A stretch of DNA of 50,634 bases from a virus. The position numbers and the translations under genes were made by a program. Below the pieces are notes generated by a model. The model saw nothing but the letters and a program-made list of their open reading frames with translations. It had not been told where the DNA came from and did no database searches. Positions within the stretch are counted from its first letter, which is position 1. Each line of letters opens with the position of its first letter. Shown in pieces: positions 7,936 through 49,900 of this stretch. Location of the stretch: IMG/VR virus record IMGVR_UViG_3300018481_000029, positions 1 to 50,634 of that record. One strand, 5' to 3'.

Positions 7936-7964
7936 AAAAAATTACCTCCGTCCAGCTTTGACCC

Positions 7965-7993
7965 TTGACAAGTCGTTGAGCACGGGCTAGGAT
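7965..7993 (+). promoter_or_regulatory. Sigma70-type promoter for rightward block B
   Basis: TTGACA (7965-7970), 17 bases, then TAGGAT (7988-7993). Transcription would start near 8000 and reach the GGAGG site of the 8022 gene. The CCCTTGACAAGTC context of the -35 box is shared with the block D promoter at 42117. Confidence 0.8.
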
Positions 7994-40216: not shown

Positions 40217-42049
40217 TTATGAAGAGGAGGTGCCAAAATACCCTCCCCGCTTCGCAACTTTCTGCAACTCCAGCAACTCTCTCCTCTTTGCAAGCCGCGC
40301 TCCAACGAGCCAGCGCCCCTGCTCCCAGCTTTCCCGCTGCAGGGGGTCATCAGGGAGGTTGACTTTCCTCAGTGCCTCCGGGAACTCCAGTTCCTTCTTC
40401 TGCTCTCCCGTTATGGGAGTCATGTTGGGCATCCACTTCTGAGTAATCATCCGCATTGAGTCCATCGCGTCATCGCGGAACTTGACCGGCATCTCCCTCG
40501 TAATCCCCGTGTCGTGGATCTCCTGAGGGATCCAGCGCCAGTCGATGATTTCCTCTCTCCAGCGGCTCAGTCCGGCGTCATCCTTTGCGACCTCAAGCTG
40601 GTCATCCTCGACGATCCAGTAGAAGAAGCTCTTCCCCCACACGTCGGGCTTGAAGGGGTGGAGCATATTCGGATCGACCTGCAGGTAGTGCCGGATCTGT
40701 GCGATCCCGTCACGTTTCCCTGCCGAGGCAGCCTGAAACGGGATTCCGTACTTAATCCGCAGGGTATCTCTCTCTGAACGGGCCTCGTGGCTCATTCTGA
40801 AGCGCCTGTAGGCCCTTTCTGACTCTGAGCCTACCTTCCCCCCTATCGCCTCCTGTATCGCCTCTCCTACGTGGTCTACGAGCACGCTAGTGCCAAACGT
40901 CAGGCCCTTGTAGAGGAAGTGAACGCCGGGTAATACGGAGTCTTCCCCGCTCGTCGTGAAGAAGCTGACTGCTGTCGGGTGGGCTTCGTAGCCCGAGGAG
41001 CCCCAATCAAGGCCCACATCCTTCTTCCAGTGGGCGGGAATGGTCCGGATACCGTAAATCGCCTGAAATTCAGACCACGTGATGAGGTGAATCCGCTCAT
41101 CGAACTCCGGAATCACCAGCCCTTCGAGAGAAGCGGCGAAATCGTGCTGATATTCGGCCAAAAAGGCGTCTTTTCCGCTGTCGTCGAGGAATTTCTGACA
41201 TGCAACGAGCGAAAGACCGCTCCACGTCGGTCTCCCGGCAGTAATTCGGTCTCTTCCGTTGGAAAACTCGATTTCGAGGCCCTCAAGAGCCTTGACAGGT
41301 GCTGTTATGCGCCTTCGAGAGAGGATTCTGACCTTTCCCGTGAGCATTTGATTGAGAACTGAGTGCCGATGGATGAGATTTTGGGCAAAAAGGACGATTG
41401 TCTGCCCGGTTCCGGTCGGAAGAACGCTTCGAGTGAGCACCTCGATCTTCCGCTGGACCAGTTGGAAGCTGTCGTGGAGGTCGTCAAGGTCATCCACCAC
41501 GATCATCGTGGGCCGAACGTCGATTAGCTTCCCACCGCGTATACCGACGTCGGCCCCGAGAGCCGCAATCCCCCAACCCCCCTCTGTGATGAGCATGTTC
41601 TGCCGCCATCCGAACTTCTGCCCGAATTTACCAACCTTTGGGTTCCCTAATCCGGGGTACCACTTGCTGATTTCAGAGGATTCAAGGCGATTCTTGATGG
41701 CTTGGAGGTGACCTTCGGCGAGGGCCTGCGTCCCCGAAAGGTAGAGGACGTAGCCTTTGTTGAGTAAAGCCCCCTCGGCAATACAGGCCCACTCAACGGC
41801 GGATGATTTGCCGCCTCCACGGGGCCATACAGCAGGGTAGACGAGATCGTCCGCCCCGATCTTCCGCCGCGCCTTCCGGGCCTGAAGCATTCCCCAGTAC
41901 CAGTCCCAAAAGTCCGCGTGGTGTAAAGCAAATTCGCCGGTGAAGGTATCGGGGCCCATCCGGGGGAGCCAGTCCTCCCACTTCCCCTCACTCTCGGAAG
42001 CGTCTAGGATGACCTGTCCCCCGAATAAGAACTTCTCGAATGCTTGCAT
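40217..42049 (-). CDS. terL: Terminase large subunit
   Basis: The N-terminal ATPase has Walker A WPRGGGKSSAVE near residues 75-86 and Walker B TMIVVDDLDD near 181-190 with the two acidic residues D186 and D187. The C-terminal nuclease has VGLDWGSS (first catalytic Asp near 348) and DDAMDSMRM (near 540). This motor cuts concatemeric DNA and drives it into the capsid through the portal. P22 gp2 has 499 residues; this one has 610. It heads the leftward late block, divergent from block D. No small terminase was recognised next to it. The start at 42049 lacks a ribosome site and is set by the open frame. Confidence 0.92.
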   Translation of the reverse strand: MQAFEKFLFGGQVILDASESEGKWEDWLPRMGPDTFTGEFALHHADFWDWYWGMLQARKARRKIGADDLVYPAVWPRGGGKSSAVEWACIAEGALLNKGYVLYLSGTQALAEGHLQAIKNRLESSEISKWYPGLGNPKVGKFGQKFGWRQNMLITEGGWGIAALGADVGIRGGKLIDVRPTMIVVDDLDDLHDSFQLVQRKIEVLTRSVLPTGTGQTIVLFAQNLIHRHSVLNQMLTGKVRILSRRRITAPVKALEGLEIEFSNGRDRITAGRPTWSGLSLVACQKFLDDSGKDAFLAEYQHDFAASLEGLVIPEFDERIHLITWSEFQAIYGIRTIPAHWKKDVGLDWGSSGYEAHPTAVSFFTTSGEDSVLPGVHFLYKGLTFGTSVLVDHVGEAIQEAIGGKVGSESERAYRRFRMSHEARSERDTLRIKYGIPFQAASAGKRDGIAQIRHYLQVDPNMLHPFKPDVWGKSFFYWIVEDDQLEVAKDDAGLSRWREEIIDWRWIPQEIHDTGITREMPVKFRDDAMDSMRMITQKWMPNMTPITGEQKKELEFPEALRKVNLPDDPLQRESWEQGRWLVGARLAKRRELLELQKVAKRGGYFGTSSS

Positions 42050-42116
42050 CGGTGGCTGAATGTACCATAGCTACCACAATGAGGGCTAATAGGAATTGAG
42101 CGTCCACCTTCTACCC

Positions 42117-42145
42117 TTGACAAGTCCCTGTCAGACCGGCATAAT
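42117..42145 (+). promoter_or_regulatory. Promoter of rightward block D
   Basis: TTGACA (42117-42122), 17 bases, then CATAAT (42140-42145). The start point near 42152 precedes the GGAGG site and ATG at 42196. The -35 context CCCTTGACAAGTC also occurs at the block B promoter. Confidence 0.75.
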
Positions 42146-45405: not shown

Positions 45406-45817
45406 TACCTGAAGAACAGGGGTCTAAATTGCATTACTAGATATTGGGGTGTCCGTGACCCCCTTCCTGCAGTCTCCTGCTGGGGATTTTGCCCTAACCG
45501 GACTTAGAAATTTTGGGATTTTCCGGAAACTGGGTGTCAGATGGGACCCATCAGTTACCGGTGAAATTCGGGTGTTGGGGTTCTCTGCAAACTGAGGGCT
45601 TTGTGTGTGATGTGTGCAGCGCGTATATGCGGATTACCGCCGCGAAACGCAGCGGTCCGCCGGACCGGGTAGTGGAACGGGACTCCTAGGCAAGGGCCGC
45701 CGGACGGGTAGGTGGACGGGCTGTTGGCGGACGTGTGGACGGGCTGATAGGCTGGGCTTTGCTATCCTCGCGTGCTAACGGGCTGGGCTGGAAAGCTCAC
45801 GAGATTATCAAAACACA
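45406..45817. other. Non-coding spacer between convergent blocks D and E
   Basis: No gene of useful length is visible. The segment holds a small GGGGT/ACCCC hairpin (about 45450-45470), a longer dyad at 45523-45561, and from about 45640 a change to repeated GGACGGG and GGGCTGGGCT words. It separates the rightward D genes from the leftward E genes, so both sets should terminate here. Confidence 0.5.
45523..45561. repeat. Inverted repeat in the D/E spacer
   Basis: CCGG-A-AACTG-GGT on the left pairs with ACC...CAGTT-A-CCGG on the right (45523-45526 with 45558-45561 at the ends), with small bulges. There is no T tract. It may be a transcript-end structure or a protein site. Confidence 0.5.
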
Positions 45818-45856
45818 AAAGCCCGTGACGAGCTTGTAAGGGCTCACACGGGCTTT
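45818..45856 (-). terminator. Terminator built from the ACGGGCT word, second in tandem
   Basis: AAAGCCCGTG (45818-45827) pairs with CACGGGCTTT (45847-45856). On the minus strand the stem is followed by TGTGTTTTG. It lies behind the terminator at 45897 and would back it up for the leftward 45954 gene. Confidence 0.7.
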
Positions 45857-45896
45857 AAGGGCTGGGAGGATAGAACGGGCTGGGCTCAAAGCAAAA

Positions 45897-45931
45897 AGCC
45901 CGTGAAGGGCTTGCTAGGCTCTTCACGGGCT
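45897..45931 (-). terminator. Terminator after the 45954 gene
   Basis: AGCCCGTGAAG (45897-45907) pairs perfectly with CTTCACGGGCT (45921-45931). The minus-strand tail is TTTTTGCTTT, a classic intrinsic terminator, 22 bases past the gene's stop. Confidence 0.85.
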
Positions 45932-45953
45932 ATTGTGGGCTGGGCTGGGCTTG

Positions 45954-46298
45954 TCAGTCGTACACGTTGAAACCGTTAGAGTACCGTTCAAAGTCTGCCG
46001 TGACAAGCTCACGGGCTGGGCTGGGCTCAAAGTAGTTTGTGACCGGAAAGCCCTTTGCTTTCCTGGGCTTACGGGCTGGGAGCATCTCGCGTAATTCCAG
46101 CCTAAGGGCTTTTTCCTGCTCACGCTCTTTCCGTGCAAGCTCACGCTCATTCTTAGCACGGGCTTTACCGGCAGATATTTCGTCGCGTGCATTTTGCAAG
46201 TACAACGTCTTGTAGTACTTGGCGTCTGAAATGCGACGGCGCAATTCCTTGATATTGTCACGCTTAATCTGCTTATCCGATCTTACTCTATCGCACAT
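45954..46298 (-). CDS. Basic helical protein with SPAR-like words (114 aa)
   Basis: The ATG at 46298 has GGAGT seven bases upstream. The product is highly charged: KRDNIKELRRRISDAKYYK, then KARAKNERELARKEREQEKA. The C-terminal end includes LPARKPRKAKG and PSPAREL, which are written with the AGCCCAGCCCGT repeat word that also builds the local hairpins. It may bind nucleic acid. An upstream frame to 46388 also reads WESPAREPF through the intergenic hairpin and is less likely to be coding. Confidence 0.55.
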   Translation of the reverse strand: MCDRVRSDKQIKRDNIKELRRRISDAKYYKTLYLQNARDEISAGKARAKNERELARKEREQEKALRLELREMLPARKPRKAKGFPVTNYFEPSPARELVTADFERYSNGFNVYD

Positions 46299-46325
46299 GT
46301 TGCACACTCCAATTTTGAAGGGCTC

Positions 46326-46349
46326 ACGGGCTGGGCTTTCCCAGCCCGT
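46326..46349 (-). repeat. Perfect hairpin between two block E genes
   Basis: ACGGGCTGGG (46326-46335) and CCCAGCCCGT (46340-46349) form ten base pairs around a four-base loop. No T tract follows, so this is not a typical terminator. It uses the same word as the terminators nearby and sits in the 46361/46298 gene gap. Confidence 0.75.
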
Positions 46350-46360
46350 AAGCACGGTTA

Positions 46361-46630
46361 TTACCTTGTGAACACTTGAGTCTCGCACGGGTTAAGCACG
46401 TCCATTCCCGCACGTTTCAGGTATTCGGTTAGCAAGTCTACTGTGTTGTACTTGCCGTTATATGACGTGAGGAAAGAGTTTATCGCTCTTTCCAGCCCAA
46501 CATTATCTTGCCCTTCAGGCAGGTAAATGTTGGTAGCAGTAAGGATAACGGTATTTTCGGGCTTTTTGAGCTTTACCGTTACTCTATCACGACCATTCTT
46601 TCCGCAACGTACCACACGCTTCATGTTCAT
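46361..46630 (-). CDS. Small hypothetical protein (89 aa)
   Basis: The ATG at 46630 follows GGAGAAGAGC and begins MNMKRVVRCGKNGRDRVTVK. An N-terminal basic part is followed by a beta-rich middle (ENTVILTATNIYLPEGQDNV) and a helical end (LLTEYLKRAGMDVLNPCETQ). An ATG at 46642 is an alternative. Not recognised. Confidence 0.5.
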   Translation of the reverse strand: MNMKRVVRCGKNGRDRVTVKLKKPENTVILTATNIYLPEGQDNVGLERAINSFLTSYNGKYNTVDLLTEYLKRAGMDVLNPCETQVFTR

Positions 46631-46648
46631 GCTCTTCTCCATTGTTAA

Positions 46649-46672
46649 GGGCTGGGCTCAAAAGCCCAGCCC
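46649..46672 (-). repeat. Perfect hairpin between two block E genes, same word
   Basis: GGGCTGGGCT (46649-46658) and AGCCCAGCCC (46663-46672) pair fully around a four-base loop, with further AGCCC to one side. It sits between the stop at 46679 and the ATG at 46630. Confidence 0.75.
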
Positions 46673-46678
46673 AGCCTG

Positions 46679-46891
46679 CTATTTAGACTCCACTTCGACG
46701 GGCTTAAAGTCGTGAAATGGGTCAATATCGTTTAGGTTACAAGAAACCGTGTGACCTAAACCGTTCAAGATAACGCATTGTAGAACGGCGCTATCCGTGA
46801 AGAGCACAACGTTTAGAACGTCATGAGCATCTTGCGATACCATTTCGCTCATGTAAACGTGCTTTGTATCCTTGCAAATACTTATGTGCAA
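46679..46891 (-). CDS. Small hypothetical protein, TTG start (70 aa)
   Basis: A TTG at 46891 lies eight bases after GGAGGT, a strong site, so this start is chosen. The product MHISICKDTKHVYMSEMVSQ, then VLNVVLFTDSAVLQCVILNG, is mixed beta and helix. It follows a promoter with a terminator-like hairpin between. No family recognised. Confidence 0.55.
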   Translation of the reverse strand: MHISICKDTKHVYMSEMVSQDAHDVLNVVLFTDSAVLQCVILNGLGHTVSCNLNDIDPFHDFKPVEVESK

Positions 46892-46950
46892 AGCGTTTAC
46901 CTCCGATTAGATTGTCAAGAGCCCTTGATAAAACACACAGGGCAAGCAAA

Positions 46951-46973
46951 ACGGGCTGGGCTTTCCAGCCCGT
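46951..46973 (-). terminator. Terminator-like hairpin between promoter and gene, same word
   Basis: ACGGGCTGG (46951-46959) pairs with CCAGCCCGT (46965-46973), and the minus-strand tail is TTTTGCTTG. It lies only about 16 bases after the predicted start of the 46996-47024 promoter and before the 46891 gene, so it should stop or regulate transcripts early. Confidence 0.7.
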
Positions 46974-46995
46974 GACGGGCTTTCCCGACAAACGA

Positions 46996-47024
46996 AGTAT
47001 CGCACGGGCTGGGAGAGAATGCAA
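46996..47024 (-). promoter_or_regulatory. Block E promoter 1
   Basis: TTGCAT (47019-47024), 17 bases, GATACT (46996-47001). Twelve bases beyond the -35 box lies the repeated element GGACAATCAAGGACTTACG (47037-47060), as at two other promoters. Confidence 0.7.
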
Positions 47025-47036
47025 GACCCAAACCAC

Positions 47037-47060
47037 GGACAATCAAGGACTTACGTGGAC
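47037..47060. repeat. Promoter-upstream element, copy 1
   Basis: GGACAATCAAGGACTTACG is 12 bp from the -35 box of promoter 1. It matches copies at 47660 and 48261 at most positions. Confidence 0.75.
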
Positions 47061-47076
47061 GGTTCGAGTGATCTCT

Positions 47077-47168
47077 GCGCGAGCGCACATGCGCGTGCGC
47101 GTAGCGCGAGCGCGGACGCGGACGCGCTCCAGCGGACGCGGACGCCCGGACGCGCTTGTGGACGCTCG
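47077..47168. repeat. GGACGC-rich tract, copy 1
   Basis: A GC-rich tract of repeated GCGGACGCGGACGC words and CGCG dinucleotides occupies the space between promoter 1 and the upstream gene's terminator. It has no real gene; open frames here are repeat shadows. Confidence 0.8.
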
Positions 47169-47181
47169 CAGACACAAAAAA

Positions 47182-47209
47182 GGGCCCACAGATTTAACTC
47201 TGTGGGCCC
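47182..47209 (-). terminator. Strong terminator after the 47233 gene
   Basis: GGGCCCACAG (47182-47191) pairs perfectly with CTGTGGGCCC (47200-47209), and the minus strand continues TTTTTT. It lies 23 bases past the gene's stop. Confidence 0.92.
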
Positions 47210-47232
47210 AAATCCCGAACTGGGACAATCAA

Positions 47233-47526
47233 TTATGCGATCTCGACGGCACCCTCCATATTGAGGACCAGTGCGAGGAAAGGATCAAAGGTGACCTCGA
47301 ATCCCGCCTCGCGTGCCTTGACTGCGAACCCGAGGACCTCACCCGCGAAGTTATCCTTCTCGGTGCCTTTGATCGCGGCGGAAACCTCCGCCTTGATGCG
47401 ATCCACTTCGGGTTCTATCAGATTCTCGGGATCATCATATGCGATCCCATCCAATGTGAGCACCAACTCCGTGCGCTCTGTGAAGTAAGTCTCTTCCGTG
47501 ATTGGATCTCGTCTGACATTTCGCAT
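47233..47526 (-). CDS. Small hypothetical protein (97 aa)
   Basis: The ATG at 47526 follows GGAGGTTGCT, the recurrent block E leader. The product is acidic (MRNVRRDPITEETYFTERTE, then YDDPENLIEPEVDRIKAEV) with a beta-rich end (AREAGFEVTFDPFLALVLNM). It has its own promoter (47620-47647) and terminator (47182-47209), so it is a complete cassette. Not recognised. Confidence 0.65.
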   Translation of the reverse strand: MRNVRRDPITEETYFTERTELVLTLDGIAYDDPENLIEPEVDRIKAEVSAAIKGTEKDNFAGEVLGFAVKAREAGFEVTFDPFLALVLNMEGAVEIA

Positions 47527-47619
47527 AGCAACCTCCAATCGCGCCTCTTTGCGCGAAAAGTGTGTAATCAGATTTTCAAAAAGCGAGTAATCAGTCGGCT
47601 CGTTCGCTCGACTGAACCC
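47527..47619 (-). promoter_or_regulatory. Leader of the 47233 gene with two hairpins
   Basis: The transcript leader contains a CAGTCG/CGACTG hairpin followed by CTTTTTG and a GCGCG/CGCGC-type hairpin before the GATTGGAGGTTGCT ribosome site. The first could act as an early termination or regulatory point. Confidence 0.5.
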
Positions 47620-47647
47620 ATCTTACCACATTGGCGGAGTCTGTCAA
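47620..47647 (-). promoter_or_regulatory. Block E promoter 2
   Basis: TTGACA (47642-47647), 16 bases, TAAGAT (47620-47625). The stretch TGAACCCATCTTA at the -10 box is identical to promoter 3. The repeated element lies 12 bp beyond the -35. Confidence 0.8.
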
Positions 47648-47659
47648 GACCCATCTCTC

Positions 47660-47683
47660 GGACAGTCAGGGACTTACGTGGAC
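47660..47683. repeat. Promoter-upstream element, copy 2
   Basis: GGACAGTCAGGGACTTACG starts exactly 12 bp beyond the -35 box of promoter 2. It is followed by TGGACTGTCC, so an outer GGACAGTC/GACTGTCC dyad is also present. Confidence 0.8.
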
Positions 47684-47713
47684 TGTCCTTTGGTATTGGG
47701 CCCGAGGGCCTGC

Positions 47714-47794
47714 CTCCGCGCTCGCGGAGCGCGTGAGCGCGGACGCGGACGCGCAAGCGCACTCGGACGCGGACGCGGTTGTCAGCCGGACGCT
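47714..47794. repeat. GGACGC-rich tract, copy 2
   Basis: Repeated GCGGACGC words with CCGCGCTCGCGGAGCGCG palindromic ends fill the space upstream of promoter 2's element. A partial copy of the promoter-upstream element (TCAAGGACTTAGGG) lies just beyond at 47821-47834. The stretch 47835-48000 holds no gene I can support. Confidence 0.75.
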
Positions 47795-48002
47795 CACTTG
47801 TTCAAGTTCAATGGTGTTTGTCAAGGACTTAGGGAGCATTCTAGCTGGTAAACAGACGCCTACACAGGGAGCGCCGGACGCTCACGCCTCCTAAGCCTGA
47901 AATCTATCAATCTGATAAGTCTTTTAGAATCAATCCGAGGTCTCGGATTTACGCAGGTGAGACAAACTCTACAACAAGCACTTAGATCAACTTTCACTTG
48001 GA

Positions 48003-48033
48003 CAAAAAAGCGCGGAAGGCCATCCCTCCGCGC
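48003..48033 (-). terminator. Strong terminator closing the gene-less 48213 transcript
   Basis: GCGCGGAAGG (48010-48019) pairs with CCCTCCGCGC (48024-48033), one wobble, and the minus-strand tail is TTTTTT. It directly follows an orphan TTGGAGGTTGCG ribosome site. Confidence 0.88.
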
Positions 48034-48213
48034 AACCTCCAACTACTAGAGGCTAAAGGTCTTAAGAGTGATTCTTCCGTGTCCCCGAAACGACTCCGAA
48101 GAGCCGTGCAGCCGTTAGTCTGCGACGCCCGGACGATAGGTAGCTCAGGGTATTGGCCTGCCGGTATCGGGTAGAACCTATCAAGTTAGTGATTCACGTC
48201 ACTCTTTCAACCT
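48005..48213 (-). ncRNA. Candidate structured RNA, or emptied gene cassette (about 205 nt)
   Basis: Promoter 3 (48220-48248) and the terminator at 48003-48033 bracket about 205 bases with no coding frame longer than about nine codons. The strand folds: GATAGGT/ACCTATC bracket a 34-base loop, and CGGCTC-TTCG-GAGTCG is a stable tetraloop hairpin. Just before the terminator is TTGGAGGTTGCG, the ribosome-site leader used by neighbouring genes. So this is either a non-coding RNA or a cassette that has lost its gene. It is not a tRNA: the arms are too close. Confidence 0.55.
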
Positions 48214-48219
48214 GAACCC

Positions 48220-48248
48220 ATCTTATCAGCCTGTCGGCTTGCTGTCAA
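48220..48248 (-). promoter_or_regulatory. Block E promoter 3
   Basis: TTGACA (48243-48248), 17 bases, TAAGAT (48220-48225). The start near 48213 reads the candidate RNA. The repeated element is again 12 bp upstream of the -35. Confidence 0.85.
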
Positions 48249-48260
48249 GACTCAAACTCC

Positions 48261-48282
48261 GGACAGTCAGGGACTTAGGGGC
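48261..48282. repeat. Promoter-upstream element, copy 3
   Basis: GGACAGTCAGGGACTTAGG begins exactly 12 bp beyond the -35 box of promoter 3 and is identical to copy 2 over 17 bases. Beyond it lies the palindrome at 48285-48300. Confidence 0.8.
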
Positions 48283-48284
48283 AA

Positions 48285-48300
48285 TGTCGGCGTGCCGACA
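48285..48300. repeat. 16-bp palindrome near promoter 3
   Basis: TGTCGGC-GT-GCCGACA is a near-perfect dyad with a two-base centre, the form of a dimeric repressor or activator site. It lies directly beyond the third copy of the promoter-upstream element. Confidence 0.6.
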
Positions 48301-48316
48301 TAGGCAGGAAGCTGCT

Positions 48317-48378
48317 CCGCGAGGGGCGCGAGCGCGGACGCGGACGCGGACGCGGACGCCCGAGCACGGACGCGGACC
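48317..48378. repeat. GGACGC-rich tract, copy 3
   Basis: The tract contains four head-to-tail GGACGC units and further GCGGAC words. A reversed copy of the CTAAGTCCTTGA part of the promoter-upstream element lies beyond it (about 48392-48404, plus strand), so the tract is flanked by inverted element fragments. Confidence 0.8.
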
Positions 48379-48443
48379 GTGGGCCCTCGTCCACCTCTAA
48401 GTCCTTGAGCCGCCTCACTCCTCGCTCCTCTGCTACTCACTCC

Positions 48444-48627: not shown

Positions 48628-48668
48628 CAAAAAGGGGACCTCCAACTTGCGTTGGTCCGGTCCCCTGC
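48628..48668 (-). terminator. Terminator after the 48726 gene, contains the ribosome-site word
   Basis: GGGGACC (48634-48640) pairs with GGTCCCC (48659-48665) and CCAAC (48642-48646) with GTTGG (48651-48655). The minus-strand tail is TTTTTGC. On the minus strand the 3' arm holds GTTGGAGGT, identical to the leader ribosome sites. Confidence 0.85.
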
Positions 48669-48725
48669 TTGTTGCTATGCGGGGATATTCTACAATCCCC
48701 TCTCCTTGGTGTCAATCCACTCAAC

Positions 48726-49353: not shown

Positions 49354-49395
49354 GCAACCTCCATTGCTAAGTTCTCGTCCACTGAAGCCATTATA
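49354..49395 (-). repeat. Promoter-leader direct repeat, copy 1
   Basis: From the ribosome site to the -10 box, this 42-base leader (CAACCTCCATTGC...AAGTTCTCGTCCACTGAAG on the plus strand) is nearly identical to 49833-49877. The copies differ by three inserted bases and one base near the -10. Confidence 0.85.
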
Positions 49396-49418
49396 CCTGC
49401 TCGATCCCGAGAAGTCAA
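49390..49418 (-). promoter_or_regulatory. Block E promoter 4
   Basis: TTGACT (49413-49418), 17 bases, TATAAT (49390-49395): a near-consensus sigma70 promoter for the 49350 operon. Confidence 0.88.
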
Positions 49419-49832: not shown

Positions 49833-49877
49833 GCAACCTCCATTGCGTTTAAGTTCTCGTCCACTGAAGACATTATA
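49833..49877 (-). repeat. Promoter-leader direct repeat, copy 2
   Basis: This 45-base leader of the acidic-protein gene matches 49354-49395 over nearly its whole length, with GTTT added after the ribosome site. Confidence 0.85.
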
Positions 49878-49900
49878 GCTGATTGATCTTAGCGTGTCAA
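49872..49900 (-). promoter_or_regulatory. Block E promoter 5
   Basis: TTGACA (49895-49900), 17 bases, TATAAT (49872-49877), a consensus sigma70 promoter. The -35 box overlaps the stop of the HNH gene at 49897. Confidence 0.92.

Follow-up and report, generated by a model that had tools for sequence, protein, structure and literature searches.

A 19-bp element at a fixed distance upstream of three leftward phage promoters: a putative site for a transcription activator

Between 46.95 and 48.5 kb of a virus record of 50,634 bases, in intergenic DNA of a right arm that mostly carries small leftward genes, three promoters are accompanied by the same upstream element (Table 1). This arrangement raises the question of whether the element is a regulator site that acts on all three promoters and, if so, of what kind. 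The entire record, analysed at its full length, is referred to below as the window.

Table 1. Features of the element region and of the genes mentioned in the text.
Feature	Position	Strand	Remarks
Promoter 1	46996..47024	-	TTGCAT-17-GATACT with TGn; weak
Promoter 2	47620..47647	-	TTGACA-16-TAAGAT with TGn
Promoter 3	48220..48248	-	TTGACA-17-TAAGAT with TGn
Element copy 1	47037..47055	-	CGTAAGTCCTTGATTGTCC on the transcribed strand, upstream of promoter 1
Element copy 2	47660..47678	-	CGTAAGTCCCTGACTGTCC, upstream of promoter 2
Element copy 3	48261..48279	-	CCTAAGTCCCTGACTGTCC, upstream of promoter 3
Extra core TAAGTCCYTGA (11 bp)	47821-47831	-	distal to promoter 2, no promoter at 12 bp
Extra core TAAGTCCYTGA	48398-48408	+	opposite orientation, distal to promoter 3, no promoter at 12 bp
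GTCC-N6-GTCC-N6-GTCC	47037..47060	-	promoter 1
GTCC-N6-GTCC-N6-GTCC	47660..47683	-	promoter 2
GTCC-N6-GTCC	48261..48274	-	promoter 3
GCGTCC-rich array 1	47114..47163	-	GTCC starts 93-139 bp upstream of promoter 1 -35
GCGTCC-rich array 2	47741..47791	-	GTCC starts 97-144 bp upstream of promoter 2 -35
GCGTCC-rich array 3	48336..48377	-	GTCC starts 91-129 bp upstream of promoter 3 -35
Promoter 1 terminator	46951..46973	-	about 20-40 nt into the transcript
Promoter 2 unit terminator	47182..47209	-	
97-aa protein, no assigned function	47233..47526	-	product of promoter 2
Promoter 3 transcript	48004..48213	-	about 210 nt, strong terminator 48010-48033
Lar/Ogr-Delta-like zinc finger, 91 aa	44753..45028	+	CX2C-X23-CX4C
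Terminase	40217-42049		not directly downstream of promoters 1-3

The original prediction placed a common element exactly 12 bp beyond three -35 boxes, always on the same side and with differing sequence in between. A search of the window for the 19-mer GGACARTCARGGACTTASG, allowing up to three mismatches, returned three copies and none elsewhere; 0.11 were expected, and a count of three did not arise in any of 100 shuffles. The gap to the first base of the -35 box (47024, 47647 and 48248) is exactly 12 bp in all three cases, which bears out the predicted spacing. The common side is upstream, with the correction that the promoters read leftward, from the minus strand. Along the transcribed strand, CSTAAGTCCYTGAYTGTCC is followed by 12 bp, the -35 box, 16-17 bp and the -10 box, which puts the element at about -48 to -66. 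In a three-way comparison, 16 of 19 element columns are invariant, compared with 6 of 12 in the gap and 23 of 79 further upstream, so the claim of a differing gap holds for only half of its positions. The full 19-mer lies at promoters only, but its core, TAAGTCCYTGA, occurs five times, two of them promoter-free; all copies of element and core fall within 1.4 kb. This modular conservation favours selection on positions contacted by a protein. Because a 47-nt repeat family with 74-79% identity spans all three promoter regions, it is likely that they arose by an old duplication on which this selection then acted.

The same repeat family would also suit a copied promoter cassette or a recombination boundary, in which three autonomous moron-like units, each consisting of a promoter, a small gene or RNA and its own terminator, carry a block that was duplicated or served as homology for cassette swapping. 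However, conservation is limited to the element, the -35 and the -10, while the adjoining DNA has diverged, suggesting selection on binding sites, and the units in between differ completely. This origin is considered decidedly unlikely.

The promoters belong to a narrow class. Each has a TGn motif ahead of its -10 box (extended -10), and the element is present only at promoters with both a non-consensus -10 and this extension. Promoter 1 matches the consensus at three of six positions in the -35 and four of six in the -10, in addition to its TGn, and is credible because the element accompanies these weak boxes. When the genome was scanned for TTG, 16-18 bp, TGn and a -10 with at least 4/6 matches (101 kb, both strands), four sites were found, three of which are promoters 1-3; chance therefore does not account for the pairing of element and promoter. 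Promoters 2 and 3 share TGAACCCATCTTA at the -10, as predicted (TAAGATGGGTTCA on the transcribed strand), and also TAAGATGGGTTCAG. The predicted absence of the element from promoters 4 and 5 (49418 and 49900), the two nearest to consensus, was likewise confirmed. The regions of these two promoters (49368-49406 and 49850-49888) repeat one another almost letter for letter (39 nt, 90%), the leader TTCAGTGGACGAGAACTTA included. Two rightward promoters, with -35 boxes at 7965 and 42117, have a common 26-nt upstream block of their own, CGTCCAsCTTykACCCTTGACAAGTC (7949-7974 and 42101-42126), with a single GTCC at a distance of 11 bp from the -35; both promoters also have TGT-N12-ACA upstream, at unequal distances.

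On the strand that is transcribed, all copies of the element take the form of a direct repeat, GTCC-N6-GTCC, which is extended by a third GTCC with the same 10-bp phasing at promoters 1 and 2 but not at promoter 3. Five of the six GTCC-N6-GTCC occurrences in the whole window are found at these promoters. The units start 36, 26 and 16 bp before the first -35 base and, counted from the probable start of transcription, span about -72 to -48. As 10 bp is close to one helical turn, a protein reading GTCC would occupy one face of the DNA. The region is generally rich in this motif on the minus strand (32 GTCC in 46950-48420, 6 expected), and a GCGTCC-rich array lies beyond each element. These arrays may be simple hexamer repeats.

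GCGTCC is confined on the minus strand to this region (17 here and 0 elsewhere, with about 5-14 expected). Together with the clustered cores, such polar arrays could mark an origin, a primase-loading zone or a centromere, to which the promoters would be incidental, and the phage does encode a primase/helicase, a DnaD-like protein and a ParB-N protein. Yet the copies, at intervals of about 600 bp, are not spaced like iterons, the DNA is rich in GC, and the strict 12-bp registration to promoters would be left unexplained. A replication or partition site is thus a very improbable reading. Elsewhere in this genome, the protein encoded at 2651-3460 matches, over a short length, the IS110-type Transposase_20 domain and phrog_4285.

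The observations argue, on balance, for the element being the binding site of a sequence-specific activator of the three leftward promoters, a reading to which we give somewhat better than even chances. The activator, made by the phage or by the host, would probably read the GTCC units, spaced every 10 bp, from one face of the DNA. From its position immediately before the -35 box (about -72 to -48), the bound protein would touch RNA polymerase and thereby raise transcription from promoters whose -10 boxes are non-consensus but extended. Its targets would be co-regulated: a leader with an early terminator before small genes, the 97-aa protein, and an RNA of about 210 nt that ends in a terminator and has no convincing gene. 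The upstream arrays may hold more of the activator protein or shape the DNA. Motif, spacing, repeat geometry and promoter class are read directly from the DNA; from them we infer protein binding, activation and co-regulation. The original prediction had argued from fixed spacing to a DNA-bound activator touching RNA polymerase. This is still the best reading, given the modular conservation, the fixed distance and the one-face GTCC repeats, but the spacing argument is weaker than claimed, since all three regions may descend from a single ancestral copy and no relative was found in which to compare the spacing. The UP-like element offered as an alternative is not supported: its position upstream of the -35 is similar, but AT content is only 38-46% in the 24 bp that precede the -35, and these match the consensus at 4 of 15 positions and contain no A/T tracts. 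CRP and LexA motifs were tested as well and not found.

A regulator on these tandem repeats could also keep the promoters down. A repressor or dual regulator might use the element as an operator, perhaps with a DNA loop that joins it to a GCGTCC array or to a distal core; the distal cores, and arrays at similar distances, would suit such loops. Repressors of the L5 type use dispersed asymmetric 13-mers (PMC9283540), although the present sites differ from L5 stoperators in that they are not dispersed genome-wide. Against repression, the element lies clear of the promoter, with 12 bp between it and the -35, it is missing from the most consensus-like promoters, and no HTH_3 repressor was found in six frames. 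Repression is accordingly viewed as unlikely.

Among known activator sites, there is a close likeness to those of the late regulators Ltr, Alt and RinA, with direct repeats placed shortly before a sigma-A promoter over a comparable range of positions. The Ltr/Alt activators of Bacillota phages act on direct repeats ahead of their promoters, and deletion of these repeats abolishes activity; the repeats lie at -76 to -32 for TP901-1 Alt and at -107 to -42 for phi13 Ltr (PMC13123087). Promoters 1-3 have such direct repeats, in the form of GTCC-N6. In contrast to the Ltr/DUF1492 systems, a regulator gene of the family (DUF1492, PF07374) was not found in a six-frame search of the genome, and packaging and structural genes do not appear to be driven: the terminase is not directly downstream, and the outputs are small genes without assigned function and an RNA in which no convincing gene was found. 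There are also three promoters here, none of which is the single late promoter of an Ltr-type system.

The site of lambda CII lies across the -35, whereas the element here lies upstream of it. Both are tetranucleotide direct repeats with a 6-bp gap and a 10-bp period, but the tetranucleotide is another one. The CII sequence, TTGC-N6-TTGC (PMC2629481), was not found at these promoters, nor was a CII homologue in six frames.

The late-promoter site recognised by Ogr and Delta lies at about -55, a position similar to that of the element. The phage also encodes an Ogr/Lar-like zinc finger with the spacing CX2C-X23-CX4C. The site of the P2 Ogr and P4 Delta late promoters, TGT-N12-ACA (PMC3931495), is absent from promoters 1-3. 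The finger itself scores 20.1 bits, below the family cut-off of 26.3, and has X23 instead of X22. It is the only candidate for a phage activator that was found, and a weak one; six-frame searches for sigma-r4_2 and HTH_3 proteins gave no match. In its geometry the element resembles known phage activator sites, while its sequence matches none of those found here. Since DUF1492, CII, sigma-r4_2 and HTH_3 proteins were not found and the known site type of the Ogr-like finger is absent, the element may be said to work like an Ltr- or CII-type site, not to be one.

The three transcription units differ in what they would deliver. The promoter 1 unit has an early terminator hairpin, with small genes beyond it. 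In its leader (46951-47000), AGCCCGTCACGGGCT can form as an alternative to this hairpin, and the alternative pairing is possibly an attenuator. Further along (45738-46973), many GGGCTGGGCT and AGCCC repeats and hairpins lie between the small leftward genes. The gene of promoter 2 is preceded by the ribosome-site-like TTGGAGGTTGC; structure prediction of its 97-aa product gave a low-confidence fold (pLDDT 65), too poor for use. In the promoter 3 transcript, the same ribosome-site-like sequence stands immediately before the terminator, and no convincing gene was found within its approximately 210 nt. The Rfam search with this RNA returned nothing above threshold. A structured RNA is not claimed, as the fold without the terminator is no better than shuffles (z -1.4). 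Because of this fold and the lack of an Rfam family, the product could be either a small RNA or the orphaned 5' leader of a lost gene. A near-consensus promoter at 48715 (TTGACA-17-TAGAAT) meets a strong terminator hairpin within about 50 nt (48631-48715), possibly yielding a very short RNA with a GCAA loop.

No relative sharing the element region was found in the phage collection, in terminase-based searches or in searches of genome contigs. The phage collection contained no near DNA relatives of the whole record, and none of the promoter 3 segment was found among plasmids. The terminase has relatives of 36-46% identity on short contigs only, none informative for the element region, and none was found in bacterial genomes (genome contigs). 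An 85-aa protein of the right arm has many homologues; core and array are absent from all loci fetched. Matches to the sequence itself were discarded. The 17-mer has six loci in viral contigs, none with the arrangement of element and promoter, the element joined to TTGAC matched once in these contigs, with no evident promoter, and the element joined to TTG gave nine scattered matches in 84,980 genomes, mostly located within long open frames and lacking a common context, which were judged to be chance.

A search of viral contigs for the bare geometry, by contrast, found two unrelated phage contigs in which a triple GTCC with a 10-bp period lies beside near-consensus promoters (L045:6554-6618 and L046:2997-3051). 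Both have a third GTCC in register, although the search pattern did not require one. The L045 repeats directly follow a DUF1492/sigma-r4-like gene, which resembles a late regulator. Ten further DUF1492-type phage loci were read, and in one of them (L052) GTCC-N6-GTCC stands immediately beyond the regulator gene; another of the ten, L056, shows other 10-bp repeats by eye (TGTCA/TGGCA), and the others give no clear picture. Tandem GTCC repeats may therefore mark promoters of other phages too, on the thin basis of two or three cases.

The boldest version of the activator reading, which we hold to be rather improbable, is a new phage activator unrelated to Ltr, CII and Ogr. It would read tandem GTCC decamers to control an early regulon of its own, with a regulatory RNA among the products; the polar GCGTCC arrays would serve as an upstream enhancer, and the same decamer architecture would recur in unrelated phages. 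If the activator reading in general is right, a GTCC-N6 decamer ahead of extended -10 promoters would be enough to recognise a small phage regulon in the bare sequence, and at least one of its products looks like a non-coding RNA. The same geometry could then be searched for in other phages, leading to activators that homology would not reveal.
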